Part shown: in pieces, positions 4,129 to 23,489 of the stretch | How positions within the stretch are numbered: position 1 is the stretch's first letter | How the letters are laid out: each line of letters begins with the position of its first letter | Assembly (NCBI RefSeq): GCF_023008165.1 | Contig: NZ_JAKQZA010000007.1 | Location: 1 to 64,000, forward strand | Direction: 5' to 3' | Length of the DNA: 64,000 bases | Origin: Kordiimonas laminariae | GTDB lineage: Bacteria; Pseudomonadota; Alphaproteobacteria; Sphingomonadales; Kordiimonadaceae | The notes under the pieces: model-generated | Database searches by the model: none | What the model was told of the DNA's origin: nothing | Seen by the model: the letters and a program-made list of their open reading frames with translations, nothing else | Made by a program: the position numbers and the translations under genes

Positions 4129-4156
4129 AAAAGAGCCATCACTTGATGGCTCTTTT
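4129..4156 (-). terminator. Rho-independent terminator of the GntR/ABC operon
   Basis: AAAGAGCCATCA and TGATGGCTCTTT pair perfectly around a two-base loop. In the minus direction a run of T follows. It lies 26 bases past the stop codon of the ABC permease. Confidence 0.9.
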
Positions 4157-10267: not shown

Positions 10268-10711
10268 TTATTTTACGATTTCGCCAGGAACGGGCGGAGA
10301 TGCGAAATGATCATTTACATTCGGGTTACAGCCCCATGGGTGATCAATCGCGAACTTCCACGAGCCATCAGCCTGCTGGCGTACAACTTCAATACCAGAA
10401 TGACCAAGTTCCACAGGCGTGCCGTCTTTAAGCTTGCCTACCACTTTCCAGCTTGAACGCATGAGCGCCAGATCACCAGCGCGGGTGATGTGCCTTACAA
10501 TAAGAGACATTTTACCCGTGATACCAAACAAGCCATTTTCAAAGCCTGCACGAATGGCATCGCGGCCTTCAAGTAAACGAGCACCTTCATGAGGCAATGC
10601 CCATGTTACACAGTCTGGCTCGTGAAGCTCGATTGCTGCATCCAGATCGCCTGCATGGAACGCTTCAACCAGTGCAAAATCTACGTCTTCGGGGTTCATT
10701 GGTTTTTTCAT
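10268..10711 (-). CDS. DUF4440/SnoaL-like NTF2-fold protein
   Basis: 147 residues, cytoplasmic. The pattern DFALVEAFHAGDLDAAIELHEPDCVTW, GRDAIRAGFENGL and ALMRSSWKVVG...GHSGIEVVRQQADGSWKFAIDHPWG is that of the DUF4440 group. AAGGAAT precedes ATG 10711. It follows the VOC gene by 22 bases and is probably in one transcript with it. A ligand-binding or isomerase role beside VOC and amidase genes is likely but the substrate is unknown. Confidence 0.78.
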   Translation of the reverse strand: MKKPMNPEDVDFALVEAFHAGDLDAAIELHEPDCVTWALPHEGARLLEGRDAIRAGFENGLFGITGKMSLIVRHITRAGDLALMRSSWKVVGKLKDGTPVELGHSGIEVVRQQADGSWKFAIDHPWGCNPNVNDHFASPPVPGEIVK

Positions 10712-10733
10712 GATTTCTATTCCTTATCTTTGA

Positions 10734-11351
10734 TTAGTCGCGGTTTTTTGGCGCGCCGCCGCTGCTATAAACTTTGTTATCCACTTCAGGTGGGGCCGAC
10801 GGATACCATTCCTCCGGTTCCGGATATTCAAAGTCCGCAGGGAAATAATAGGTTTCAAATACGGTTGACGTTTTCTCTTCTGTATCGAAGAAAGCGAAGT
10901 GGTTCTTATCCATCCACTTGCCTGATTGGATGCACTTAAAGCCTCTGCGTTCGAATTCAGCAAAGCGTTCTTCAAGCGGAATATCACCACAATCATAAGC
11001 AATATGTTGAATGCCCCCTTCTGGGTTTCTCTTCAGGTACTCATCAAAAATTGTTGGTCCTGAGAGAGGCTGCATCAGTTCCCAGATGATGTTGCCGCTT
11101 CTGGCGAAACAAACCTTGATTTCAAACTCAGCTGGTTCACCTCGATAGGTTTGCTCCGTGGTGTTTTCTGGTGAAAAGGTATAAACACGCCATGGGCCAA
11201 TACCCATTTTCACCAGGCCTTCCATCGTTTTCTTATGGTCAGGCGTTACAATCGCTATTTCAATGGCGTCACCAAGAAAGGTATTGGATAACTCTGTCTC
11301 AGAAGTTGCCGTGGGAGCTACTTGCCGGTCATCTTTGTTGATTACAGACAT
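10734..11351 (-). CDS. VOC (glyoxalase/bleomycin-resistance) superfamily protein
   Basis: 205 residues. Two beta-alpha-beta-beta-beta units can be traced: EIAIVTPDHKKTMEGLVKMGIGPWRVYTF...IKVCFARSGNIIWELMQPLSG and GGIQHIAYDCGDIPLEERFAEFERRGF...HFAFFDTEEKTSTVFETY. Candidate metal ligands are Glu in WELMQP, His in GIQHIAYD and Glu in VFETYYF; the first His is not evident. The arrangement is closest to methylmalonyl-CoA epimerase/Glyoxalase_4 relatives. GGAGGAG lies 9 bases before the ATG. Upstream is an 8-bp inverted repeat; downstream is a co-oriented NTF2-like gene. Confidence 0.8.
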   Translation of the reverse strand: MSVINKDDRQVAPTATSETELSNTFLGDAIEIAIVTPDHKKTMEGLVKMGIGPWRVYTFSPENTTEQTYRGEPAEFEIKVCFARSGNIIWELMQPLSGPTIFDEYLKRNPEGGIQHIAYDCGDIPLEERFAEFERRGFKCIQSGKWMDKNHFAFFDTEEKTSTVFETYYFPADFEYPEPEEWYPSAPPEVDNKVYSSGGAPKNRD

Positions 11352-11382
11352 CAGGATTATTCTCCTCCTTACATACTCATTC

Positions 11383-11424
11383 GGTGATCAGTTTTTCGGG
11401 AGAAAAGCCCGCCACTTGATCACC
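11383..11424. repeat. GGTGATCA/TGATCACC inverted repeat upstream of the VOC gene
   Basis: Perfect 8-bp arms (11383-11390 and 11417-11424) separated by 26 bases, about 32 bases upstream of the VOC start. In the minus direction T-rich sequence lies between the arms rather than after them, so this is not a simple terminator. It may be an operator or leader structure. Confidence 0.35.
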
Positions 11425-11524
11425 CAAAAAATATGGGGCCTGCCTTCAAATCCGCGAACGACATGTCCTAATTCGATGGCTGAGCACTATTGAGGTGCCA
11501 ATAATCTATTTTGAAATCAGCTTC

Positions 11525-12982
11525 TTATGAGTATCTGGTATTGGCAACATACTGGGGGTTAATGATGTGAAGCATGCTATGAGCTTCCCACAACAGGGCG
11601 CGATCATTTTCGCTGTTTGCAGAGAGAAGTAATCCAGCAGGCAGTTCTTTTCTGCCCATTTCCATAGGAAGCGATACCCCCGGTAAATTCAGGAAACTCC
11701 CCAGCATCGTGTTTCTGAGGCATACTTGGTTATAACGGTGAAACGCTTTAGCTGATTTCTGCACATCAACCATCGTAGGTATATCGATAGCTACTGTAGG
11801 CATCGCCAACATTCCGCCTGCCAGTTCACGGTTCATATCTTTGATCAGCTCATTCCTGTATGAAAGAAGCATTGCTCCGTGACGGTCTTTCAATTCTATA
11901 GCATCCCGAAGCCTGGATACCACAAATGGGTCCATAGACTTTGACTTCGAGCTATATGCGTAATCTCTGTATAATCTACCTGCTTCAAAGGCCACCAGGG
12001 TACCGTTATCACGAAACAGACTAGCCACACGGTCAAAGACATTAAATTCCTTTCGAACAATAGAATATCCAGCTTCATCAAGGATTGTGAGAGCGGCTTC
12101 AAACCGTTCGACAACATTTTCCGAGGCCTGATCCCAGATATAATTTTCGGGAACAAAAATTGTCTTCTTCAGCGCATGGGTTGTTCTTTTTTTTGCTTCG
12201 TATTGTGACCAAGTCAGCCCCGCAAATAACGAACTGTGTCCCCTGAATATATCGTCCAAGAGAATACAGTCCCTTACACTGCGAGTGAGGAAACCAATGG
12301 TATCTAAGCTGGGTGCCAGTGGTGTTACACCTTCAATCGGGTACCTTCCAAAAGACGGCTTAAAACCCACCAAATTCTGCATAGAAGCGGGGATACGAAC
12401 CGAACCGGATGTATCTGTTCCAATTCCTATGGGTACTACGCCCATCGAAACAGCGGAAGCAGATCCACTTGATGATCCACCAGGAATAAGCCGTCGTGCA
12501 GCTGAATATGGATTACACGGTGTACCATGATGTGCATTAAGCCCAAGTCCTGAAAAAGCCAATTCGCTCATGTTAGTTGCGCCAACAGGAATAAGACCAG
12601 CTGCTTCTGCAAATTCAACTGATACTGCAGTGACATTATCCTTCGGGTGCATTCTCGGGGACTTTTGGCCCGCGGTTAATGGCTCATTCTTATGTTTGAA
12701 ATTATCTTTCCAAGCAATAGGAATACCATCCAGCATACTGCGTACAGCACCGAGTTTTTGATTGAGGATTGAGATATCTGTGTGTAGCCCGATTTTCTCG
12801 GGCTTTGACGTGCGAATAAAAATATTCTTCTGCTCATCTTCCGCTGACCGGGTAGAACATTCTATCAACTCTTGCGTGGACAGATGGCCTTCTTTTACTA
12901 GACCCACTATTTCAACAGCATCCAGAAACCGTAGTGCATAATGAGGTGTTAAGAGATCCATCTTATCCAGCTTCCCATTCAT
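11525..12982 (-). CDS. Amidase signature family enzyme
   Basis: 485 residues. The Ser-cisSer-Lys triad is visible: Lys92 in GIPIAWKDNFK, the serine cluster in PGGSSSGSAS (168-176), and the nucleophile Ser194 in GTDTSGSVRIPAS. These enzymes hydrolyse amide bonds of small molecules; relatives include AtzF-type allophanate hydrolases and glutamyl-tRNA amidotransferase A. The absence of gatB/gatC nearby argues for catabolism. Its start overlaps the SDR stop by 4 bases (translational coupling), so an oxidoreductase and an amidase act in one pathway. A second amidase lies at 18196. Confidence 0.88.
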   Translation of the reverse strand: MNGKLDKMDLLTPHYALRFLDAVEIVGLVKEGHLSTQELIECSTRSAEDEQKNIFIRTSKPEKIGLHTDISILNQKLGAVRSMLDGIPIAWKDNFKHKNEPLTAGQKSPRMHPKDNVTAVSVEFAEAAGLIPVGATNMSELAFSGLGLNAHHGTPCNPYSAARRLIPGGSSSGSASAVSMGVVPIGIGTDTSGSVRIPASMQNLVGFKPSFGRYPIEGVTPLAPSLDTIGFLTRSVRDCILLDDIFRGHSSLFAGLTWSQYEAKKRTTHALKKTIFVPENYIWDQASENVVERFEAALTILDEAGYSIVRKEFNVFDRVASLFRDNGTLVAFEAGRLYRDYAYSSKSKSMDPFVVSRLRDAIELKDRHGAMLLSYRNELIKDMNRELAGGMLAMPTVAIDIPTMVDVQKSAKAFHRYNQVCLRNTMLGSFLNLPGVSLPMEMGRKELPAGLLLSANSENDRALLWEAHSMLHIINPQYVANTRYS

Positions 12983-13773
12983 GAAAGTCGCTCACCTCTA
13001 TCCGCGTTGATAGATTGACCAGTAATATTGCTGGCAAATGGTGACGCTAGATAGAGATATAATCCCGCGATATCAGAGGGCTCCTGAATCCCTGGCAAAC
13101 ACTGGTTTGCCGTAATTTCAGACAGAGCTTCCTCTTCGCTTACTTGCTTATCTTCAGCGATTTCTTTTAGGGATTGCATCGCAGGGCCCGTTTTCACCCA
13201 GCCAGGGCATACGCAGTTTACCCTGATACCCTCGGGCCCTAGTTCACGGGCAAGGCTGCGCATAAACCCAATATTAGCGTGCTTGGAGGCTACATAACCA
13301 CTGAATTCAGCAACACCGGTGCGGCCCCAGATAGATGCGGTGATAATGATATTACTACCCTGCTTCATATATCTCACGGCTTCCCGAGTTACATAATATG
13401 TACCCAGAATATTGGTATTTATAATGGTTCTGAAATCTTCCTCAGTTTGCGAAGATAAGTCCGTAATAGGGGTAACACGTTCCACGCCAGCATTGGCTAC
13501 AAGCACATCCAGTTGTCCTATTGATGCAAGCGCCTCTTTCACAGCTTCCGAATTCTGAATATCGCATTGATGTGCGGTAACAGGCACGGAAGAGTTTAGT
13601 GAGAGCTTTTCGGCGGCTGCAACAATGTCTGAGCTTTGCGACATAATATGCAGTATTGCACCAGCTTCAGCGAAAGCTTGGGCCACACCAAAACCAATAC
13701 CGCTACTTCCACCAGTTACCAATACGGTTTGATCTTTAAAACTCAAGAAGCTCACATCCCGTTCCTTTTTCAT
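12979..13773 (-). CDS. Short-chain dehydrogenase/reductase coupled to amidase
   Basis: 264 residues. Cofactor loop TGGSSGIGFGVA (~20-31), NAG motif VLVANAGVE, the catalytic Ser in ITASIWG, the YVASK (YxxxK) motif, and CPGWVKTGPA after the active site. This is the classical SDR layout. The basic/acidic position after strand 2 does not settle NAD versus NADP. ATG 13773 is the first start; an in-frame GTG (VSFLSF) with AAGGA upstream is an equally good choice. Coupled by a 4-base overlap to the amidase. Confidence 0.87.
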   Translation of the reverse strand: MKKERDVSFLSFKDQTVLVTGGSSGIGFGVAQAFAEAGAILHIMSQSSDIVAAAEKLSLNSSVPVTAHQCDIQNSEAVKEALASIGQLDVLVANAGVERVTPITDLSSQTEEDFRTIINTNILGTYYVTREAVRYMKQGSNIIITASIWGRTGVAEFSGYVASKHANIGFMRSLARELGPEGIRVNCVCPGWVKTGPAMQSLKEIAEDKQVSEEEALSEITANQCLPGIQEPSDIAGLYLYLASPFASNITGQSINADRGERLS

Positions 13774-14036
13774 CTGTTCAACACAGCGATAAAATTCAGT
13801 TATTTTGTGATTAGGCTATGAACAGCAGGCCAAAGCTACAACACCGCAAAATTCATCCAACAGATGATGAGTTTCCAATAACCGTTGAGGTGAACCAGCC
13901 TCACCCAATCCTTGATGAATAGTAAGGTGACACAAGAGAGCATCAGACCAATGATTGCAGGCAGAGCTTTCTCGCGCAGCGCTTTTAGCGCGGAGAAAAG
14001 TAAGCATTTAACGGTTATCTGAACAGGAGATCATCC

Positions 14037-14495
14037 ATGTCCGAACAGGAAAGAAATAAAGAAATCGTCGAGAAAATTTACTCAATCTGCTGGAACCATG
14101 GAGACATGGACATGATTGATGAAATCTTTGACGAAAACGTAAACCATGAGCAATTTCTTGAGGGCTGGCCGACAGGGCGCGAAGGGTTCAAAACTCTTGT
14201 GAGATTCTGGCGCGAAGCCTTCCCTGATATTCACGAAGATGCAATTGAGCTCATTGCCGAAGGTAATAAAGTTGCAAGCCGCTTCCGTCTACGCGGCACC
14301 CACAAAGGTGATTTCTACGGCATCCCAGGTACAGGCAAAAAAATCGATATCTTTGGCGGTGAAATGTTCACTTTTAAAGACGGTAAAGTGGTTGATTATC
14401 TTTACCACGAAGATGCGCTCGGGCTTTTCTTCCAGATTGGTGTAATGCCGCTTAATCAGGACGAAATCGCAGGCGTTGATGTTTCCGCCGATTAA
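14037..14495 (+). CDS. SnoaL-like ester cyclase family (NTF2-fold) protein
   Basis: 152 residues with the SnoaL polyketide-cyclase-like pattern: NKEIVEKIYSICWNHGDMDMIDEIFDENVNH, REGFKTLVRFWREAFPDIH, a VASRFRLRGTHKGDFYGIPGTGKKI strand pair and GEMFTFKDGKVVDYLYHED. In true SnoaL an Asp acts as acid-base; here His and Asp in YLYHEDALG are candidates. CAGGAGA lies 8 bases before ATG 14037. It stands alone on the plus strand between two leftward clusters and is followed by a hairpin at 14541. Confidence 0.82.
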   Translation: MSEQERNKEIVEKIYSICWNHGDMDMIDEIFDENVNHEQFLEGWPTGREGFKTLVRFWREAFPDIHEDAIELIAEGNKVASRFRLRGTHKGDFYGIPGTGKKIDIFGGEMFTFKDGKVVDYLYHEDALGLFFQIGVMPLNQDEIAGVDVSAD

Positions 14496-14540
14496 TATTC
14501 AAGCATTGTCCTTGGGAGCCCCTTTAAGTTCCCAACACTT

Positions 14541-14590
14541 CCCACAGATAAAGCCAGAATCCATTCAGGTGATATCTGTGGGCTCTTTAA
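14541..14590 (+). terminator. Hairpin with T-rich tail between convergent NTF2-like genes
   Basis: CCCACAGAT (14541-14549) pairs perfectly with ATCTGTGGG (14574-14582), with CTCTTTAATT after it. The 24-base loop is long, but the position between the convergent stops at 14495 and 14591 fits a shared terminator. Confidence 0.6.
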
Positions 14591-15001
14591 TTAGGCAAGC
14601 GCAGTAAAATCTTCCACAATATCCCAAGCTTGCGCCGCTATTGACCATTCACCATTTGTTTTAACAAGCAAAAATGCGCTTATATCTTTGGTCACCTCTG
14701 CTTTATTCTCTGTCATCTCACAGCCGGCAAGTGCAATTGCTATATTGCCCACCACTTTAATAAACGTACCCTTTTCTTGTTCAGAAAAGCTTTCAAGACT
14801 ACCGTCTTTTCGTAACCCCTCCATTCGTTGAATAAAATCAAAAACACTAATCGGCTTCGCTGGGCGCTTTGCAGGAATAAGGTAGGCTCCTTCCGTAAAC
14901 CCCGCCTCAAAACTTGGCCAATTTGGTTTGATATCTACTCCCCACTTCAGGGCCGCAAACTGAGCCCGAATAATGCCTTTTATCTGTTCTTCATCCGTCA
15001 T
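14591..15001 (-). CDS. SgcJ/DUF4440-like NTF2-fold protein
   Basis: 136 residues: EEQIKGIIRAQFAALKWGVDIKPNWPSFEAGFTEGAYLIPAKRPAKPISVFDFIQRME, then NIAIALAGCEMTE and the final ISAFLLVKTNGEWSIAAQAWDIV strands. It is an NTF2-like small protein without a signal peptide. No catalytic residue can be named. It lies just downstream of the structured-RNA terminator at 15033-15068, so it has its own start of transcription. Weak ribosome-binding site (GGATGATCGG region). Confidence 0.7.
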   Translation of the reverse strand: MTDEEQIKGIIRAQFAALKWGVDIKPNWPSFEAGFTEGAYLIPAKRPAKPISVFDFIQRMEGLRKDGSLESFSEQEKGTFIKVVGNIAIALAGCEMTENKAEVTKDISAFLLVKTNGEWSIAAQAWDIVEDFTALA

Positions 15002-15032
15002 CCGATCATCCTTGATTATTCATGATTTAATA

Positions 15033-15072
15033 AAAAAGCCCACCATCCAAGACTCAAGGATGGTGGGCGTCT
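15033..15072 (-). terminator. Strong intrinsic terminator with no protein gene upstream
   Basis: In the minus direction GCCCACCATCC pairs perfectly with GGATGGTGGGC around a 9-base loop and is followed by six T. The nearest leftward protein gene upstream begins at 16925 and ends at 16170, behind an intervening rightward gene. The terminator therefore most likely ends a separate short transcript (see ncRNA). Confidence 0.9.
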
Positions 15073-15205
15073 ACCTGAAGCCAACCCGGGGCTAAAGGTA
15101 GCTAACCTTCGAAAGGTTAAGTTGGGATGCGTAGGCTACTGCCAACTGATAGGAAACGCTCAGGGGGAGGGAGAGCTCCAATTTTCCGCGCCTACCACAT
15201 CCTCG
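15033..15205 (-). ncRNA. Putative stand-alone structured RNA, 6S-like candidate
   Basis: Minus strand, about 170 bases ending at the terminator. The 5' segment GGATGTGGTAGGCG (15202-15189) can pair with CGCCCACCATCC (15069-15058), closing the molecule with a bulged stem that shares its 3' arm with the terminator. Inside, CCTGA (15164-15160) pairs with TCAGG (15078-15074), and TAACCTT/AAGGTTA (15119-15103) forms the apical hairpin. A CCCCTGAGC string on the 5' side recalls the motif at the same place in proteobacterial 6S RNA. No coding frame or known riboswitch was seen. The transcript is well supported; the 6S identity is tentative. Confidence 0.5.
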
Positions 15206-15220
15206 GGAGACTAAAACTCA

Positions 15221-15237
15221 TTCCATGAAACATGGAA
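15221..15237. repeat. Perfect palindrome upstream of the putative ncRNA
   Basis: TTCCATG-AAA-CATGGAA, 7-bp arms with a 3-base spacer, about 16-20 bases upstream of the likely RNA start. In the minus direction TTGCAG stands directly before it, so it fills a -35/-10 spacer position. It may be an operator for the RNA. Confidence 0.4.
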
Positions 15238-15448
15238 CTGCAATCCCCGATACGCTGGGAAATGCTGTCGATACCTCACGCCGTATCAACACAGAAAATA
15301 TAGCTTCAGGGACGCCGCAGATAAACTGATCAAAAATGCAGCGTTACATGAAAAATGATCATTAGCGGGACCATTAAAAAGTATGAGCAAACTGGAACAG
15401 TGGTTTTGGCTGAGCAAAGCGCACAGCCCCAATAAGAAAGGCTCCAGA

Positions 15449-16180
15449 ATGTGTTATACCACTGAAGAAGAAAAGCTGCGCAGCGCGCTAGGGTCTGCTG
15501 CAGAATTAAAAGGCTTTAATGATACCCTGGTTACCTCTGCATCACCGAGTGGCCGTGTCGAGTTTAACAAAACTTACCGTATACCTGCCAGACAAGGCCG
15601 TGCGGTTATTCTCAAGAAAAACGAATATCTGGTTCTGGCAAACCCAACGGGGCGTCAAGTATGTGATCTATGGGCCTTTAATGCCGAAAATCAGGCTGAA
15701 TATATGTCCATGGAACATAGCCGAACTGCGTTAAATCGAACTATTCCCAGAGAAGGAGATAAGCTTGTTACCAACCGCCGTCGGCCTATTCTTGAAGTTG
15801 TCGCAGATTCATCAGCTGGCATTCACGATACAGTAATCGCGGCCTGTGATGTGTACCGATATGAAGAATTGGGCGTTGAAGGATATCATGATAATTGTTC
15901 CGATAACATGCGAATGGCCATGTACGCTATCGGCAGAACGCAGGCCTACGTGCCGAGCCCTTTCAATGTGTGGATGAATGTTCCAGTCGAGGAAAATGGT
16001 GCTTTTCGCTGGCTACCACCGGTTTCAAAAGAACGGGATGAGATAGTCCTTAAGGCCTGTATGCCAACTATCATTGCAATGTCAGCATGCCCACAGGATA
16101 TCACGGTGGTGAATGGTGACAGTAAAACCACTCATCCACTCGATTTTATTGTAAAACCCGCAAGCTCCCTTACGGCATAA
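15449..16180 (+). CDS. DUF1989 (urea carboxylase-associated) family protein
   Basis: 243 residues from MCYTTEEEK; an upstream ATG at 15383 would add 22 residues but lacks a Shine-Dalgarno, while AAAGG precedes 15449. Family marks are IPARQGRAVILKKNEYLVLANPTGRQVCDLWAFNA, HDTVIAACDVYRYEELGVEGYHDNCSDN and PSPFNVWMNVPV. DUF1989 proteins accompany urea carboxylase and include carboxyguanidine deiminase subunits, which act on guanidine-derived nitrogen. No urea carboxylase or partner DUF1989 gene lies in the window, so this one probably deaminates or hydrolyses another compound. The 3' end overlaps the convergent SDR gene by 11 bases. Confidence 0.83.
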   Translation: MCYTTEEEKLRSALGSAAELKGFNDTLVTSASPSGRVEFNKTYRIPARQGRAVILKKNEYLVLANPTGRQVCDLWAFNAENQAEYMSMEHSRTALNRTIPREGDKLVTNRRRPILEVVADSSAGIHDTVIAACDVYRYEELGVEGYHDNCSDNMRMAMYAIGRTQAYVPSPFNVWMNVPVEENGAFRWLPPVSKERDEIVLKACMPTIIAMSACPQDITVVNGDSKTTHPLDFIVKPASSLTA

Positions 16181-16925
16181 CGGCACCACCGTTGGGCCCT
16201 AGAGTTTGACCAGTTATGAAAGTGGCCTCCGGGCCACTTAAAAACCTGACACAGCCAGCTACTTCATCAACCGTACCCAAACGCCCCATTGGGTTGTTCA
16301 GTTCAAGTTCCAAACTTTCCTCAGACATACGCTTTGGATCTAACATACGTGTGGAGATAGGCCCTGGTGCAATGGTATTAACCAACACATAAGGTGCAAA
16401 TTCTGTAGCCCAGGACTTTGTAAGGTTCATCATAGCTGCTTTTGATGCTGCATAGAGGGCATTGTTCGGACGTCCAAGGTATCCCAGCTCTGATCCAATA
16501 TTGATCAGCCGCGGGAGATCGCTTCGGCCTTGCATACGCCTCAGCGCTTCTTTTCCGACAAAGAAAGCACCTCTTACATTGGTATCAAAAATATACTGGA
16601 AATCTTCTTCCGTACTATCAAGAAACGGCTTGCTAAGCGCAACGCCGGCATTATTCACCACAATATCAATCGCGCCCCAGACTTCATCAATATAGTTGAA
16701 CATCTGCCGAACATCGATCTCATTGGAGACATCAGCACGCACAGGCATGCACTTCCCCCCTAAAGACCGTATCTCGGTTACAACATTATTGATGTCGTCT
16801 TCAGATTCATTCCAGTTCAAGACCACTTGAGCACCTGCTATTGCTAGTGCCTTGGCGCATGCCCGGCCAATACCTCTGCAAGAACCTGTAACTAACGCGA
16901 TCTTCCCGTTCAACTCTTGTGTCAT
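16170..16925 (-). CDS. FabG-like short-chain dehydrogenase/reductase
   Basis: 251 residues: TGSCRGIGRACA (cofactor loop), ADVSNEIDV, NNAGVALSKPF, INIGSELGYLG with the catalytic Ser, YAASK motif, IAPGPISTRML and the C-terminal ITGQTLGPNGGAVMP. This is a classical SDR close to 3-oxoacyl-ACP reductases; the context argues against a fatty acid synthesis role because no acyl carrier or synthase genes are near. It is followed upstream by a LysR gene read in the same direction. The stop overlaps the convergent DUF1989 gene. Confidence 0.87.
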   Translation of the reverse strand: MTQELNGKIALVTGSCRGIGRACAKALAIAGAQVVLNWNESEDDINNVVTEIRSLGGKCMPVRADVSNEIDVRQMFNYIDEVWGAIDIVVNNAGVALSKPFLDSTEEDFQYIFDTNVRGAFFVGKEALRRMQGRSDLPRLINIGSELGYLGRPNNALYAASKAAMMNLTKSWATEFAPYVLVNTIAPGPISTRMLDPKRMSEESLELELNNPMGRLGTVDEVAGCVRFLSGPEATFITGQTLGPNGGAVMP

Positions 16926-17118
16926 CCGGATAAAGCCTCATTTCTCTGATAGCGAAAAGCCCGGCTTTATTGTGGATATACAGATGATAAAGCCGCTTCC
17001 CAGCTCGGATTTTCTCTATTTTAAGAGTAACGATTAATTGGCTTAATCTACGAGCGATAAGAGCTAATCTGATAGCTGAGGAATTTAGACCTTTAGATGA
17101 GTTAAAGTTATTTGAGGA

Positions 17119-18075
17119 CTATTCAGAAGGTTCATTGTCCTTTAACCACTCTTTTTCCATAAGAGCGCCAACGGCTGTATCCCTGAAAGTATCAGCCTCT
17201 TCCAATAGCCAGTTTTCAAAAGCTTTTACCTTCTTGCTCTCGGAATGAAGCTGATTGCAAACGAGATAATAACTTTTATCTTTCAACAGCTCAGGAACAG
17301 GCACGATCAATCGCCCTGCTTCAATGTGAGAAGCGCTAGCCAGTAGACTTGTGAGCGCAATACCACGACCGTCTAAAGCTGCCTGAACACAAATATGCTC
17401 GTCACTATAGGTTTCTGCTAAATCCAGATTAGGTTTTTCAATGCCACATTCAGCGAACCATTTTTCCCAGTCAGGATCTTCTTCACAAAACCCACTCCAT
17501 TCATAAACAATTAGCGGATGTTTGAGCAGATCTTCCGGCGTAATATCGCCACTTTCAAATAAATCAGGCGAACAAACTGGCGCTACATAGTTATCGAGTA
17601 TCCAAGAATAATATTGATCGCCGTAATCACCAGTACCGTGCCTGATTGCAATATCAATATTGTTTACAGCAAAATCGCGTACCATATCACTGGCATCAAG
17701 CTTTACCCGGAACTCCTGATTTTCAGCGCTAAAGGTATGCAAACGAGGCGATAGCCATTTACTGGCGAATGTCTTTGTCGTGGTGATATGGATAGGACCA
17801 CTGGCATCACTATCCGTAATAGCAAGTGAAGCTTCTTCAAGCTTACGAAAAGCTTCATGCACATGCGGTGCGTATACTTCACCAGCCTGAGTAAGGGATA
17901 AAGACCGGGTCAACCGGTTAAACAGCTTTAGACCAAGATCATCTTCAAGGGCTTTGATCAAATGGCTAATCGCTGTAGGCGTAACGTTTAATTCTTCAGC
18001 CGCCTTTTTGAAGCTCAAGTGCCTTGCTGCAGCATCAAATGCCTGAAGTCCTCTAAGCTGCGGAAGTCTTGCCAT
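17119..18075 (-). CDS. LysR-family regulator, GcvA-like
   Basis: 318 residues. The helix-turn-helix RGLQAFDAAARHLSFKKAAEELNVTPTAISHLIKALEDDLGLKLF is typical of the GcvA/AmpR group (TPTAISHLIKxLE). The effector domain follows from about residue 90 (PIHITTTKTFASKWLSPRL), with a GALMEKEWLKDN tail. It lies between the SDR and the second amidase, all leftward, and is the only dedicated regulator within the 7.2-23.3 kb region. It is the natural candidate for controlling that catabolic set. Target sites were not identified. Confidence 0.88.
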   Translation of the reverse strand: MARLPQLRGLQAFDAAARHLSFKKAAEELNVTPTAISHLIKALEDDLGLKLFNRLTRSLSLTQAGEVYAPHVHEAFRKLEEASLAITDSDASGPIHITTTKTFASKWLSPRLHTFSAENQEFRVKLDASDMVRDFAVNNIDIAIRHGTGDYGDQYYSWILDNYVAPVCSPDLFESGDITPEDLLKHPLIVYEWSGFCEEDPDWEKWFAECGIEKPNLDLAETYSDEHICVQAALDGRGIALTSLLASASHIEAGRLIVPVPELLKDKSYYLVCNQLHSESKKVKAFENWLLEEADTFRDTAVGALMEKEWLKDNEPSE

Positions 18076-18195
18076 ATGTTAAAGCCTCAAATTTCCCGTC
18101 TGATTAAAGTATGTTAGCCAGAATTTAATAATAAAGTCTATATGCCAGCGGTGAAGTATGATGGGGCACGTATGCCCCACTCCATTCAGCCGTTC

Positions 18196-19677
18196 TTACA
18201 ACACACGCGCTTTACACACATCATAATGTTGCTGCCACGGGGCAACTAGCTCAAAGGCACTGCTGAGCGCGATAACATCACCATCTGCCCCCATCCGGCC
18301 CGTGATATGAAGCCCAATTGGCAATCCATCTTTGCTAAGCCCCGCTGGCACATTTGCAGCAGGATGCCCTGTGAAATTATTGAAGTATGTCATACACCAA
18401 CCAATAAGAGGTTCAACCTGTTCACCCTCAAGTTCTATTGGCCCCATAGTATCGCCATTTTGCTCATTCAAAACGGGTAAACAAGCAAGAGTGGGAGAGA
18501 CAATAGCGTCATAACCTTCCAGTACGCGCTGGAATTCATCAAAGATTTCACCGCGAATACTTTGTTGGCGGTGATGCTCTACAAATGTGAGCTCTTCCGA
18601 AGCATATTTTGACCATTTAATGAATTCATCAGGCACCTGTTGCATATCACCGCTCAAGAGATCGACGCCATTTTGCTTCAAGCTATCGAGCACATGATTG
18701 TTGAGCGGAGCAAATAATTTGCACCAAAGTTCACCCAGTTCATAAGCAGAGTGCTTAATGTCAAACTTCACATCCTCAACGACAACACCCGCTTCCCGTA
18801 GTTTTTCAGCTGTACGGCGAACTGCGGCTCGTACTTCCGGAACAACCGGGAAAATTCCAAAATCTTCAGTAAACGCTACTTTCATGCCGCTAACCGGGCG
18901 GCCAACATATCCACTCAGATCTTCCTTTGGCATAACAGCTAAAGGATCACCCGGATGCGGCCCACATAAGGCATTAAGCGTATTTACGGCATCTTTAACA
19001 TTACGCGTGATTGGACCCATATGAATGAACGGTGTGGAAGCACCAAAAGCATTTGGCCTTATAAGAATAGGTGAGCGACCAAAAGAAGGCTTGAACCCAT
19101 AATTGTTACACCAGGCAGCTGGAATACGAATAGAACCACCCCCATCAGTTCCTTCCGCTATTGGTACTAAACCATCAGCTACCGCTGCAGCACTACCACC
19201 TGACGAACCGCCGCTGTTGTAGTTGGTGTTAAATGGGTTTCCCGTAGGACCAAAAAGGAAATTGTCACAAGTACCTCTATAACCAAACGTAGGGCTATTT
19301 GTTTTACCAACAATAATCGCACCAGCCGCTTCCATGCGTTCTGTATAAGCGCAGTTGTTTTCTGCAATGTTATCCTTCATCGCTGGAACACCACCAAGTG
19401 TGGACGGCCATCCTTCCTTAAAATCAAAGAGGTCTTTCATAGCTGTTGGAATACCGTGAAGTGGGCCTTTGTAATCACCGCGCATTATCTCATCTTCAGC
19501 CGCCTTAGCATTTTCGAGGGCTTCTTCAAAAGCCGTAAACACAAAAGCATTCATAGATGCATTTCGTGCTTCAATGCGGTTGATAGTACTTAACATTACT
19601 TCCACCGGAGACACTTCCCGCGCTCGGATTAAATCAGCGATTTCATAAGCCGCCATATATGCAAAATCATTGGTCAT
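18196..19677 (-). CDS. Amidase signature family enzyme
   Basis: 493 residues from MTNDFAYMAAYEIADLIRAR; TTGGAG lies 8 bases before this ATG, so the seven-residue-longer frame is not used. The triad is Lys81 (GIPTAMKDLFD), Ser158/159 in NSGGSSGGSAAA (155-165) and Ser182 in GTDGGGSIRIPAA. NxxGHPAANVPAG near the C-terminus is also typical. It resembles the first amidase (11525) in length and motif set but differs in sequence, so the two are paralogues with different substrates. It lies between the LysR gene and the TonB receptor. Confidence 0.9.
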   Translation of the reverse strand: MTNDFAYMAAYEIADLIRAREVSPVEVMLSTINRIEARNASMNAFVFTAFEEALENAKAAEDEIMRGDYKGPLHGIPTAMKDLFDFKEGWPSTLGGVPAMKDNIAENNCAYTERMEAAGAIIVGKTNSPTFGYRGTCDNFLFGPTGNPFNTNYNSGGSSGGSAAAVADGLVPIAEGTDGGGSIRIPAAWCNNYGFKPSFGRSPILIRPNAFGASTPFIHMGPITRNVKDAVNTLNALCGPHPGDPLAVMPKEDLSGYVGRPVSGMKVAFTEDFGIFPVVPEVRAAVRRTAEKLREAGVVVEDVKFDIKHSAYELGELWCKLFAPLNNHVLDSLKQNGVDLLSGDMQQVPDEFIKWSKYASEELTFVEHHRQQSIRGEIFDEFQRVLEGYDAIVSPTLACLPVLNEQNGDTMGPIELEGEQVEPLIGWCMTYFNNFTGHPAANVPAGLSKDGLPIGLHITGRMGADGDVIALSSAFELVAPWQQHYDVCKARVL

Positions 19678-19750
19678 TGATCGGTCTCCAACCCTCAAAC
19701 TAAACGGTTTTCAGAGGCCCGTAAGCCCCTGATGATTTCTATCTCAATGT

Positions 19751-22054
19751 TTAGAAGCGTACGCCTGCGGAAACACCAAACACTCTTGGTGGACCATAGA
19801 TATTCAAGAGCCAGCCAAAGCTTGGTAGGTCATTCGCATAAGTCCGGTATGTGGTATTGGTTATGTTACTGCCGTAAATGGAAACGCTGTATTTCTCGGT
19901 GACATCGGTAAGCGTGATACGGGCATTACCAATCCAGTAAGCATCTTCAAGGTTAGACGGTGCGTTCACTGTTTCCAGGAACTGGTCATCGCGCCAGCTC
20001 CAATCTGTTGAAACAATCATGTTCCAATCATCACTTACTTCGAACTCATAGCGAAGCTGACCATTGAAGGTCCACTCAGGCGCATTTACCGGCGTAAAGC
20101 CATTAAGGCTTACACCAGCCGCCGTAATATCGCTTACGATTTCAGAATCAAGCCAACCGCCTGCAACGTTCAGTTCAAGGCCAGGCGCAAGAAGGAACTG
20201 ACCATCAATCTCAATACCTTTGGTATCAATAGAGGCAGCGTTCACAGCAACTGGAAGAACCGCGAAAGGTGTATCCACATTTACGATACCATTAGAGAAA
20301 TCATAAATGAAACCAGATACATTTACTCGAGCACGGTTATCAAGGAATGTAGTTTTGAAACCAGCTTCATAAGCAGTGATTGTTTCAGGCTCAAGAGACG
20401 TGAAACCTTCCTGTGCAGAAACAAATGTCGCGTTATAACCGCCTGAACGGAAACCTGTAGAAACATTACCAAAGAACAAGAACTGATCAAAAGCTTCCAG
20501 CTCTGGTTCCCATTCGAAACCTACTTTGAAGTTTACGTTTTCGTCTGTACGCTCACCACCATCTGGCAACAGTGTATGTGTTGCAAGCGTAGCAACGATT
20601 GTTTCTGGGCCATCTTCACCATCACCAAAGTCGATAGAGCCTAAGCCCGCATCCGTACCGCCAACGATAGTTACTTCTTCTCTACTCCATCGAATGCCGC
20701 CTGTAAGGCTAAAAGAGTCAGTAAGTTGGAAGTTATTGTGCAAGAAAGCCGCAACGGCTTCATTGCTCTGCGTAAAGCTAGAGAACAAGCCTGGTACAGC
20801 ACCACCTGCAACACGTAGGTATTCTGATTGACGGAAATCATCTTTCAGATAGTAAAGGCCCGCAACATAGTTCCAAACACCAGCATTATCTGAAGCAAGG
20901 CGCAGTTCCTGACCAAATACTTCTACTTTATCATAGTAGAAATTCTCAATACCCGGTCCAGGCGTACCATCAGCATCTTCACGCTGGTCGCGTTCAAATG
21001 TTTGGTAAGTTGATATGGAAGAGAATGTACCAATTGAGAAATCATGATCAATGCGAAGTTGGCCGATGAAAGATTCGTTATTCACTTGGTGTTCCACATC
21101 ACCTTCTGATGTGAAAGGATCATCGTCACCCGGGTTCAAACCATCAATTGTACGTACACAATTAGCTGTATTACCGCGCGCAGTACCATTCAGATACTCA
21201 GGGCAGAATTCAGGTGCACCAGCAGCTACCGATTCAGGAGTTGCAACACCTACACCTTCATACGGAATAAAGTCGGAACGATCCTGACCGTAAGAAAGTG
21301 ACAAGTTCACCTCAGTGTTTTCACCAGCCCAATTAAGCTGGCCACGCACTGCCCACTTATCAGTTTTGCCTTCATCCTCATTTCGTGTGGTATTTTCATA
21401 AAAACCCTGCCCCTGATTAATAACAAAACCAGACAGGCGGAGGCTTAGGCTATCAGTAAGTGGTGTATTGTATACACCTTCAACACGGAGCGTTTCATAA
21501 GTATCAAACCCAGCATTAATGCTAGCTTCAAACTCATTATGCGGCTTATTTGTGAAAAAGTTTACCGCGCCACCTGTGGCATTCCGACCAAAGAGCGTAC
21601 CTTGCGGACCTTTAAGCGCTTCAACTCGGCCAATATCAAACAAAAGCAAGCTCGTGGTGAAGCTCTTCGAAATATAGCTTTCATCAACATGTACGGCGAT
21701 TGGTGAATCCAAATTACTGGAAAATTCATTCACACCAAGGCCGCGTACGTTAAAGTTCGTAGGGCCAAAACCGTAGTTCACCTGAACGTTGGGGATATTT
21801 GCCGCTACATCAGCGATATCATCAACATTCAGTTCTTTCATTACATCGCCAGAAAAAGCAGAAAGTGTAACACCAACACTCTGCTGAGATTCAGAGCGTT
21901 TTTGTGCGGTTACAACAACCTCTTCAAGAGCATATTTTTGCTCACGTTCTTTTCCATCATCCTGTCCCCACGCTTGTGTTGCCAGAACGGTAGTAACAGC
22001 AACAGCACTCATCAGCTGCCGGTGCAACGTGCTCGGTACGAAATGCTTGCGCAT
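19751..22054 (-). CDS. TonB-dependent outer-membrane receptor
   Basis: 767 residues. Signal peptide MRKHFVPSTLHRQLMSAVAV...TQAWGQ, TonB box LEEVVVTAQKR, plug domain through NFNVRGLGVNEF, VEALKGPQGTLFGRNATGGAVNF, then a ~22-strand barrel ending GVSAGVRF with terminal Phe. GGGAGG sits 6 bases before ATG 22054. The plug motif QGTLFGRNATGGA is that of the large alphaproteobacterial TonB receptor group that takes up organic substrates as well as siderophores. Placed next to an amidase and in the catabolic region, it probably admits the compound degraded there. Confidence 0.93.
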   Translation of the reverse strand: MRKHFVPSTLHRQLMSAVAVTTVLATQAWGQDDGKEREQKYALEEVVVTAQKRSESQQSVGVTLSAFSGDVMKELNVDDIADVAANIPNVQVNYGFGPTNFNVRGLGVNEFSSNLDSPIAVHVDESYISKSFTTSLLLFDIGRVEALKGPQGTLFGRNATGGAVNFFTNKPHNEFEASINAGFDTYETLRVEGVYNTPLTDSLSLRLSGFVINQGQGFYENTTRNEDEGKTDKWAVRGQLNWAGENTEVNLSLSYGQDRSDFIPYEGVGVATPESVAAGAPEFCPEYLNGTARGNTANCVRTIDGLNPGDDDPFTSEGDVEHQVNNESFIGQLRIDHDFSIGTFSSISTYQTFERDQREDADGTPGPGIENFYYDKVEVFGQELRLASDNAGVWNYVAGLYYLKDDFRQSEYLRVAGGAVPGLFSSFTQSNEAVAAFLHNNFQLTDSFSLTGGIRWSREEVTIVGGTDAGLGSIDFGDGEDGPETIVATLATHTLLPDGGERTDENVNFKVGFEWEPELEAFDQFLFFGNVSTGFRSGGYNATFVSAQEGFTSLEPETITAYEAGFKTTFLDNRARVNVSGFIYDFSNGIVNVDTPFAVLPVAVNAASIDTKGIEIDGQFLLAPGLELNVAGGWLDSEIVSDITAAGVSLNGFTPVNAPEWTFNGQLRYEFEVSDDWNMIVSTDWSWRDDQFLETVNAPSNLEDAYWIGNARITLTDVTEKYSVSIYGSNITNTTYRTYANDLPSFGWLLNIYGPPRVFGVSAGVRF

Positions 22055-22288
22055 TATCATCCTCCCATACATCAGAAATTAATCAGCAGGCACTCCGGGA
22101 GCAGCTGCCGCAGCCCATCATCGGGCACCCTTTTCCCCGACACTGAGTATGAAAGAAGACTCCCCTGACATCATGTGAGATAAATTCAGCCTATAGATGA
22201 ATGCACTCAAAACACAAACTAAAGCATTGATTACAAATGTTTTATAAGCATCCTAAGGTTACTCTTCGCAAAGGAGTTCACATCCAAA

Positions 22289-22322
22289 GAAAAGCCCCGA
22301 AACCAACAAAGGTTTCGGGGCA
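22289..22322 (-). terminator. Terminator of the polysaccharide-deacetylase-like gene
   Basis: GCCCCGAAACC and GGTTTCGGGGC pair perfectly around a 6-base loop; in the minus direction TTTTCTTT follows. It lies 33 bases past the stop at 22354. Confidence 0.92.
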
Positions 22323-22353: not shown

Positions 22354-23262
22354 CTACTTTTTATGTTCTCGCGCCGCTGGAAACTGTGCCTGTGGATAAT
22401 AAGGCAACCTGTCCACCCTTATATCCTGTGCACCTGTTTCATGCTGGTTTTGAACATATGAAGCGATTTCATGAACCGGAGCAAACCATACATCACCGCG
22501 TTCAAGCACCCGTTCAAGCCATTCCTCCACCATCGACCAGCGGGATAACCGTCCAGTCAGGAATGGGTGCCAGATAGACATCCAAAAACCACCATATTTG
22601 TGCTGTGCTTCAAACTCTTCCCAGAACCCCTGAAGGCCATGTGACGCGGGCTGAACATGCATCATATAATCAATTTCAGGGTAATGTGCGAAAGGTGGCC
22701 AATCATCAACAGCCCAATGAACAGGCGCTTCCACCAAGCTACCCTTATCTGTCTGCAGAATGTATGGTGTATCATCCGCCATCATAGAGCTTTCATAAAG
22801 AAAGCCGTGTTCAATCAGCAGATCAACCACAGCCATGTTTACGTTGTAAACAGGTGCCCGATAACCTTTCGGCTTACTGCCGGTCATACGCACATGCACG
22901 TCTAGGGCTTTTTCAAACCAGTAACGCTGTTCTTCTGCTGAATGCGTAGTAGGATCTTCATGAATATAGCCGTGGTGTGCGATTTCATGCCCCCCCTCCA
23001 GGATATTTTCCACCATCTCTGGATATTGTTCCATACACCACGCAGGAATAAAGAATGTCTGTCTAATGCCAAATTTTTTATAGGTATCCAATATGCGGTG
23101 CATTGCAGCAGTTGGACCGTAAAGTCCCATAGAAAGCGGGCACAGTCGATCATGGCCGTCATTAGGTTTAGAAATATGGATCAAACTGTCCGCATCAATA
23201 TCAAACGTAATGGCAGCCGCGCATTTAGCACCTTCTGGCCAAGCTATCTTGTTCTTAATCAT
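22354..23262 (-). CDS. NodB-fold polysaccharide deacetylase family hydrolase (PuuE/HP0310-like)
   Basis: 302 residues, no signal peptide. NodB motifs: AITFDIDADS (motif 1), GHEIAHHGYIHEDP (metal-binding HxxxH), GYRAPVYNVN (motif 3) and GFLYESSMMADDTPY (motif 4). Cytoplasmic members of this subgroup include allantoinase-like PuuE as well as peptidoglycan-type deacetylases. Cleavage of a cyclic amide or C-N bond is therefore plausible here given the amidases and NCS1 carrier. GGAGG lies 6 bases before ATG 23262. It is the last gene of the leftward catabolic stretch and is closed by a strong terminator. Confidence 0.85.
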   Translation of the reverse strand: MIKNKIAWPEGAKCAAAITFDIDADSLIHISKPNDGHDRLCPLSMGLYGPTAAMHRILDTYKKFGIRQTFFIPAWCMEQYPEMVENILEGGHEIAHHGYIHEDPTTHSAEEQRYWFEKALDVHVRMTGSKPKGYRAPVYNVNMAVVDLLIEHGFLYESSMMADDTPYILQTDKGSLVEAPVHWAVDDWPPFAHYPEIDYMMHVQPASHGLQGFWEEFEAQHKYGGFWMSIWHPFLTGRLSRWSMVEEWLERVLERGDVWFAPVHEIASYVQNQHETGAQDIRVDRLPYYPQAQFPAAREHKK

Positions 23263-23489
23263 CACAGACCTCCTGTTTTATCAAAAACAGAATGACCGAA
23301 GCCTAGATAGCGAACACCCGAAAATAGCTAAAGCGATAGGTGATCTCAGCTATATCGCCAAGTTTTCCCCGCTTTTAACTCTTCGGTTCAACATTTTTTA
23401 AAAATGGCTTGAAAACGACCACCATCAGCTAAACATAAGTTAAAGCTTATAAATTATAATAAACTATACCTTCATGCGAGGCTCAGAAA

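Follow-up and report, generated by a model that had tools for sequence, protein, structure and literature searches.

The stretch considered here lies on the minus strand at 15033-15237 of a window of 64,000 nucleotides from Kordiimonas laminariae (NZ_JAKQZA010000007.1, positions 1 to 64,000), in the intergenic space between two divergent genes. On one side, the gene for a DUF1989 protein (15383-16180) is read away from it; on the other, a minus-strand ORF of 136 codons (14591-15001), overlooked in the first-pass annotation of this DNA, starts at an ATG at 15001 with a Shine-Dalgarno-like AAGGA (15009-15013, minus strand) 7 nt upstream. The surrounding DNA (10268-19698) holds a catabolic-looking cluster with two amidases, two short-chain dehydrogenases, two SnoaL-type proteins, a glyoxalase-type protein, a LysR regulator and the DUF1989 protein, the last of which scores, below cut-off, to trimethylamine N-oxide demethylase and urea amidolyase-associated models. 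Downstream of the 136-codon ORF, an inverted repeat with 20-nt arms that are 80% complementary (14541-14582) is situated between this ORF and the converging gene 14037-14495, and is possibly a two-way terminator.

The most prominent feature of the stretch is an intrinsic terminator on the minus strand (15032-15068), which is real and strong. As had been proposed from a first reading, its stem (GCCCACCATCC/GGATGGTGGGC) consists of 11 perfect base pairs, with arms at 15058-15068 and 15038-15048 and a 9-nt loop, and is followed directly by T6 at 15032-15037; no hairpin comparable to 15038-15068 appeared on either strand in any of 40 dinucleotide shuffles of the window. Folded alone (15033-15068), the terminator has a z-score of -6.35, and none of 300 shuffles was as stable. 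Five places in the window (near 4129, 8732, 15068, 22321 and 63159) qualify as terminator-grade hairpins if the definition requires 11 or more perfect pairs, a loop of 3-10 and 5 or more T in 8; three of them score on both strands. The one at 22321 is a leftward, minus-strand perfect hairpin (at least 11 pairs, then T) located between the gene 22354-23265 and a TonB-type receptor gene (19751-22072), of which the start and some of the DNA upstream of it (21774-22162) have an identical sequence in the sister genome G013. Regarding the terminator at 15032-15068, the earlier statement that no leftward protein gene of note feeds into it agrees with the divergent orientation of the DUF1989 gene.

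The T-run of this terminator ends 30 nt before the ATG of the 136-codon ORF, and several observations suggest that the ORF is a real gene. G013 belongs to the same genus and is collinear with the window, at approximately 95% identity over 32,879 aligned positions; its copy of the 136-aa protein is 97% identical, with codon differences that are mostly synonymous (11, vs. 4 non-synonymous), and relatives of the protein occur in other genera at 45% and 40% identity. The ORF thus looks like a genuine gene, encoding a protein that is weakly NTF2/SnoaL-like: the protein of the window matched no Pfam family at E 0.001; under laxer limits three of four aligned members scored to a lumazine-binding family, below its cut-off, and one to DUF4440 at 1e-4; a profile search of solved structures returned a single match (E 0.044) whose name is not NTF2-like. 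The gene occupies one locus in the genome contigs searched, and the protein is present in 4 of 40 relatives (its own genome included) and in six of 398 genomes of the phylum (counting its own and G013). The first-pass annotation had described the stretch as a stand-alone structured RNA; with a gene on the same strand beginning 30 nt past the T-run, this description is doubtful, and a 5′ leader of that gene is the simpler reading. Besides, there is complementarity between the Shine-Dalgarno region and the first arm plus loop of the terminator, at -14.1 kcal/mol, a strength matched by 6 of 500 shuffles.

The predicted full-length minus-strand RNA is a row of separate hairpins: a palindrome at its 5′ end, a large imperfect hairpin (15125-15202) closed by the strands 15190-15202 and 15125-15136, two small hairpins, and the terminator. 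Pair probabilities are at least 0.99 in the terminator and 0.99-1.0 for the pairs that close the large hairpin. One of the small hairpins, UUAACCUU-UCG-AAGGUUAG at 15102-15120, corresponds to the TAACCTT/AAGGTTA hairpin noticed from the letters alone; the other (15071-15101) is formed by CUACCU...AGGUAG. The closed molecule formerly envisaged, in which the two ends pair and the 3′ strand doubles as a terminator arm, is not predicted for the full-length RNA: a probability of 0.0 applies both to pairs between the 5′ strand and the terminator arm and to the proposed inner CCTGA/TCAGG pair, and the closed fold is 15.9 kcal/mol worse than the separate hairpins (-62.5 vs. -78.4 kcal/mol). Of the lengths tested, 183, 186 and 189 nt alone favored the closed fold, the second terminator arm being still incomplete at that point. 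At 186 nt, the fold in which 15190-15202 pairs with the first terminator arm has -58.7 kcal/mol, vs. -54.8 kcal/mol with the large hairpin, an antiterminator-like layout, yet the complementarity between the upstream strand and the arm is at chance level (62 of 500 shuffles were as strong). Over its 205 nt, the minus strand is more stable than shuffled sequences (z -3.68, 0/200), and most of this stability comes from the terminator, the remainder being mildly above shuffles: without it, 15069-15206 has a z-score of -1.53, and 24 of 300 shuffles were at least as stable. In fold stability, the plus strand equals or exceeds the minus strand; window-wide, after correction for G+C, the stability of the minus strand is reached by 5 of 1276 strand-windows and that of the plus strand by 3 of 1276.

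The apical loop of the large hairpin is C-rich (UCCCUCCCCCU, 15162-15172) and mostly unpaired, with unpaired probabilities of 0.72-1.0. No other pyrimidine run of this kind exists on the minus strand of the window, vs. five listed start positions on the plus strand. This loop, along with the strong terminator and its T6, brings in a trans-acting sRNA that would have a promoter and a Rho-independent terminator of its own and would bind, through the exposed loop, to other mRNAs at their purine-rich ribosome-binding sites; expression of the 136-aa gene would in that case depend on another start or on leak, and a mixed form can be conceived in which the terminated fragment of a leader also acts in trans. 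C-rich loops are a hallmark of the CcsR/cuckoo-type sRNAs of Alphaproteobacteria. Those sRNAs (PMC10253847) share with our stretch the exposed C-rich loop and the Rho-independent terminator; here there is a single such loop and no family match, and the linked DUF1127 gene of that type was absent among the ten neighboring proteins scanned. Functional sRNAs derived from 5′ UTRs are described for E. coli (PMC7815308). On the other hand, no sRNA family of Rfam reaches its cut-off at the stretch, the same-strand gene starts 30 nt past the terminator, and the duplex energies calculated with the start regions of 48 ORFs of the window lack a control and are thus uninformative on targets. We hold the sRNA to be a possible explanation, on the unlikely side; it and a leader of the 136-aa gene do not exclude each other.

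A likeness to 6S RNA had also been suggested, on account of the string CCCCTGAGC and the end-to-end pairing. 6S RNA binds the RNA polymerase holoenzyme, and its hallmark is a long end-to-end hairpin with a central bubble. The covariance model of this family (RF00013) had no match in the window, nor any at E up to 10 on 14950-15450, and the sole 6S over cut-off in the genome is found on another contig (G000:C11:560536-560696), flanked by what we take to be, by comparison with the E. coli order, zapA before it and 5-formyltetrahydrofolate cyclo-ligase after it. The remark that our locus is not the usual zapA neighborhood holds; the 6S RNA of this organism appears to occupy that setting elsewhere. 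The size range and the string named above speak for 6S RNA, the size range being the feature that the stretch shares with it; family score, fold (end-to-end pairing probability 0.0) and gene neighborhood all differ, and, as far as sequence and fold can tell, we reject 6S RNA, or a second copy of it, as having practically no chance of being right. Other known families fare similarly: the Rfam matches over cut-off in the window are two tRNAs only, and no family or riboswitch class of Rfam 15 reaches cut-off at the stretch. A permissive search returned six scores (anti-hemB, InvR, snR73, RybB, STnc310 and snoU54), all under their gathering scores and discarded. The best of them, to the anti-hemB sRNA of Burkholderia (RF02837), amounts to 18.7 bits (E 0.061), far below the gathering score of 49.5, and its best-aligned part lies in the terminator.

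At the 5′ end of the stretch, the sequence TTCCATG TTT CATGGAA (TTCCATGTTTCATGGAA, 15221-15237) is an exact palindrome that might serve as a 5′ hairpin if transcribed, or as an operator. The promoter/terminator scan also lists 15220-15238 as a weak terminator-like site. The first-pass annotation had taken the palindrome for a control site; its exactness stands, and the control role has nothing beyond that exactness to support it, the palindrome being not enriched in the window (3 found vs. 4.14 expected). Genome-wide, there is one exact site, with 14 more at two mismatches vs. 7 for a backwards control. A 13-codon ORF, seen by eye, starts within the palindrome and stops within the large hairpin. 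As for promoters, the scan found none on the minus strand, either between the T-run and the ATG or above the leader. By eye, a possible minus-strand TATATT can be read at 15297-15302, and so can a weak promoter (TTGAGT/TATTAA, 19-nt spacer) that overlaps with the terminator and might drive the 136-aa gene alone.

Comparison with G013 revealed no difference in the 284 positions of 15002-15285, vs. 169 of 2989 in fourteen other intergenic stretches and 6 of 97 in the adjoining 15286-15382; the corresponding Fisher P of 3e-7 treats sites as independent, uses a boundary set post hoc and leaves out the tRNA stretch 1-725 (4/725). The identical run as a whole covers 14957-15285 and thus extends into the 136-aa gene. 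Taken over the whole intergenic space (15002-15382), there are 6 differences in 381 positions, and the stretch 11352-11524 is equally low (3/173); moreover, the compared DNA contains five difference-free runs of at least 284 nt, namely this one, two over the tRNAs and two mainly over coding DNA. Because of these other cases, the identity of the putative leader in G013 is suggestive, not unique. The two tRNA genes on the minus strand in 321-540 lie in DNA that is nearly difference-free against G013 (106-402 and 404-922 are identical). A miss in Rfam together with a lack of conservation in close relatives had been named in advance as what would speak against the RNA; the Rfam miss occurred, and the sister genome keeps the sequence.

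Beyond G013, the element was not found in any of several overlapping genome sets. At the DNA level, the element was found in its own genome and G013 only among 98 relatives; among 385 genomes of the class its own match was accompanied by two short ones, which were rejected, one lacking the hairpin and the other lying within a stretch that presumably encodes a TatD-like protein. Among 29 genomes of the family, searched at E up to 1, 14 had a match, full in its own genome and G013 and limited to short pieces in the others, the best of which, a 24-nt piece in G017, was judged chance on reading. Plasmids and phages gave no match to the element. A covariance model (R1) was also used, which is weak in that it contains two identical rows (one distinct sequence; effective number 0.69). 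R1 detected only the two known copies over 59 relatives, and over 396 genomes of the order full matches were again confined to these two genomes of identical sequence, with partial matches in G071 (E 0.0144) and G610 (E 0.068) that are taken as chance; in both known copies, the opposite strand of the terminator hairpin scores as well (22.1 bits).

The leader is also absent, by sequence and by R1, upstream of six homologues of the 136-aa gene (L006, L013, L046, L047, L048 and L049); L007, and the loci L016-L018 of the DUF1989 protein, were covered by the R1 search only. L013 has a terminator-like hairpin 163 nt upstream of the gene, L048 a weak one at 234 nt, and L046 and L047 GC-rich hairpins with short T-runs (the upstream DNA of L046, L047 and L049 having been read by eye), all of which are taken as ends of preceding genes. 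With its filters off, R1 gave 34 low scores at the six loci; the best (11.3 bits, E 0.0091, at L046) is located downstream of the gene and taken as chance. The DUF1989 protein is present, like its neighbor, in 4 of 40 relatives (own included), and among the 18 congeners searched each of the two genes, 136-aa and DUF1989, occurs in G013 only, so that the element appears to go with an accessory locus.

This restriction to two genomes, the mild stability of the fold outside the terminator (z -1.53, 24/300), the equally good fold of the plus strand and the scan result on minus-strand promoters would all suit a strong terminator of the ordinary kind between divergent genes, which would only shield the 136-aa gene from stray transcription and would be preceded by bases devoid of an RNA function. 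The absence of differences to G013 across the whole 284 nt, beyond the terminator itself, speaks against such a shield, which we regard as rather improbable.

It is likely that the minus strand holds an RNA element with a strong terminator. That this element is the 5′ leader of the 136-aa gene (14591-15001), its intrinsic terminator serving as a point of premature termination, is a reading to which we assign roughly even chances of being right or wrong. The terminator is on the strand of the gene and 30 nt before its ATG, with AAGGA at a good spacing; a promoter placed between T-run and ATG would have little room if the mRNA is to retain the Shine-Dalgarno, and none is listed there by the scan; with the upstream gene divergent, nothing else evident needs a terminator. 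The complementarity of first arm and loop to the Shine-Dalgarno region, the advantage of the 15190-15202/first-arm pairing at 186 nt and the step in conservation at 15285 point in the same direction. Broadly, transcription would start from a promoter probably situated somewhere above 15237, and RNA polymerase would make a hairpin-rich leader of roughly 200-260 nt; many transcripts may end at 15032-15037, giving a short stable RNA, and read-through past the terminator would yield the mRNA of the 136-aa gene. A switch might be provided by strand 15190-15202, competing for the first terminator arm before the second arm is made, or alternatively by a ribosome on a short upstream ORF or by a protein factor. 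Against the leader stand the chance-level complementarity of the antiterminator-like pairing, which prevails only briefly as the RNA grows, the absence of the leader upstream of the six homologues, and the promoter situation, with none listed above the leader on the minus strand and the weak TTGAGT/TATTAA able to serve the gene alone; also, both known copies are identical, so that covariation cannot speak for the fold.

Premature termination in 5′ UTRs is known in E. coli (PMC7815308), and an attenuator dependent on an upstream ORF in the alphaproteobacterium Sinorhizobium meliloti (PMC12218461). The S. meliloti DUF1127 leader and the E. coli cases resemble our element in that a structured leader has a termination point ahead of a gene on its own strand (PMC7815308; PMC12218461). 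Our element precedes a gene of another family and is known at the sequence level, where an upstream ORF, ligand or factor would be a conjecture. In terms of the attributes of an attenuator, the terminator and the order with the same-strand gene are present at the element, and the scan lists no promoter. A more elaborate and so far undescribed arrangement, to which we give a very small chance, would be a ligand- or factor-sensing leader of the two sister species, in which competition among a strand of the large hairpin, the first arm of the terminator and the ribosome-binding site of the 136-aa gene would place termination and translation under the control of one RNA, and the terminated fragment with its C-rich loop would act in trans.

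The element appears to be lineage-restricted, with a function that we infer from the arrangement of the locus, and as a single case it opens no new class. If real, it would join the lineage-specific leader RNAs or sRNAs known outside model organisms, and its partner would be a small gene in an accessory catabolic cluster (amidases, short-chain dehydrogenases, DUF1989). A strong terminator between divergent genes, placed just before one of them, is a useful flag for a regulatory leader.
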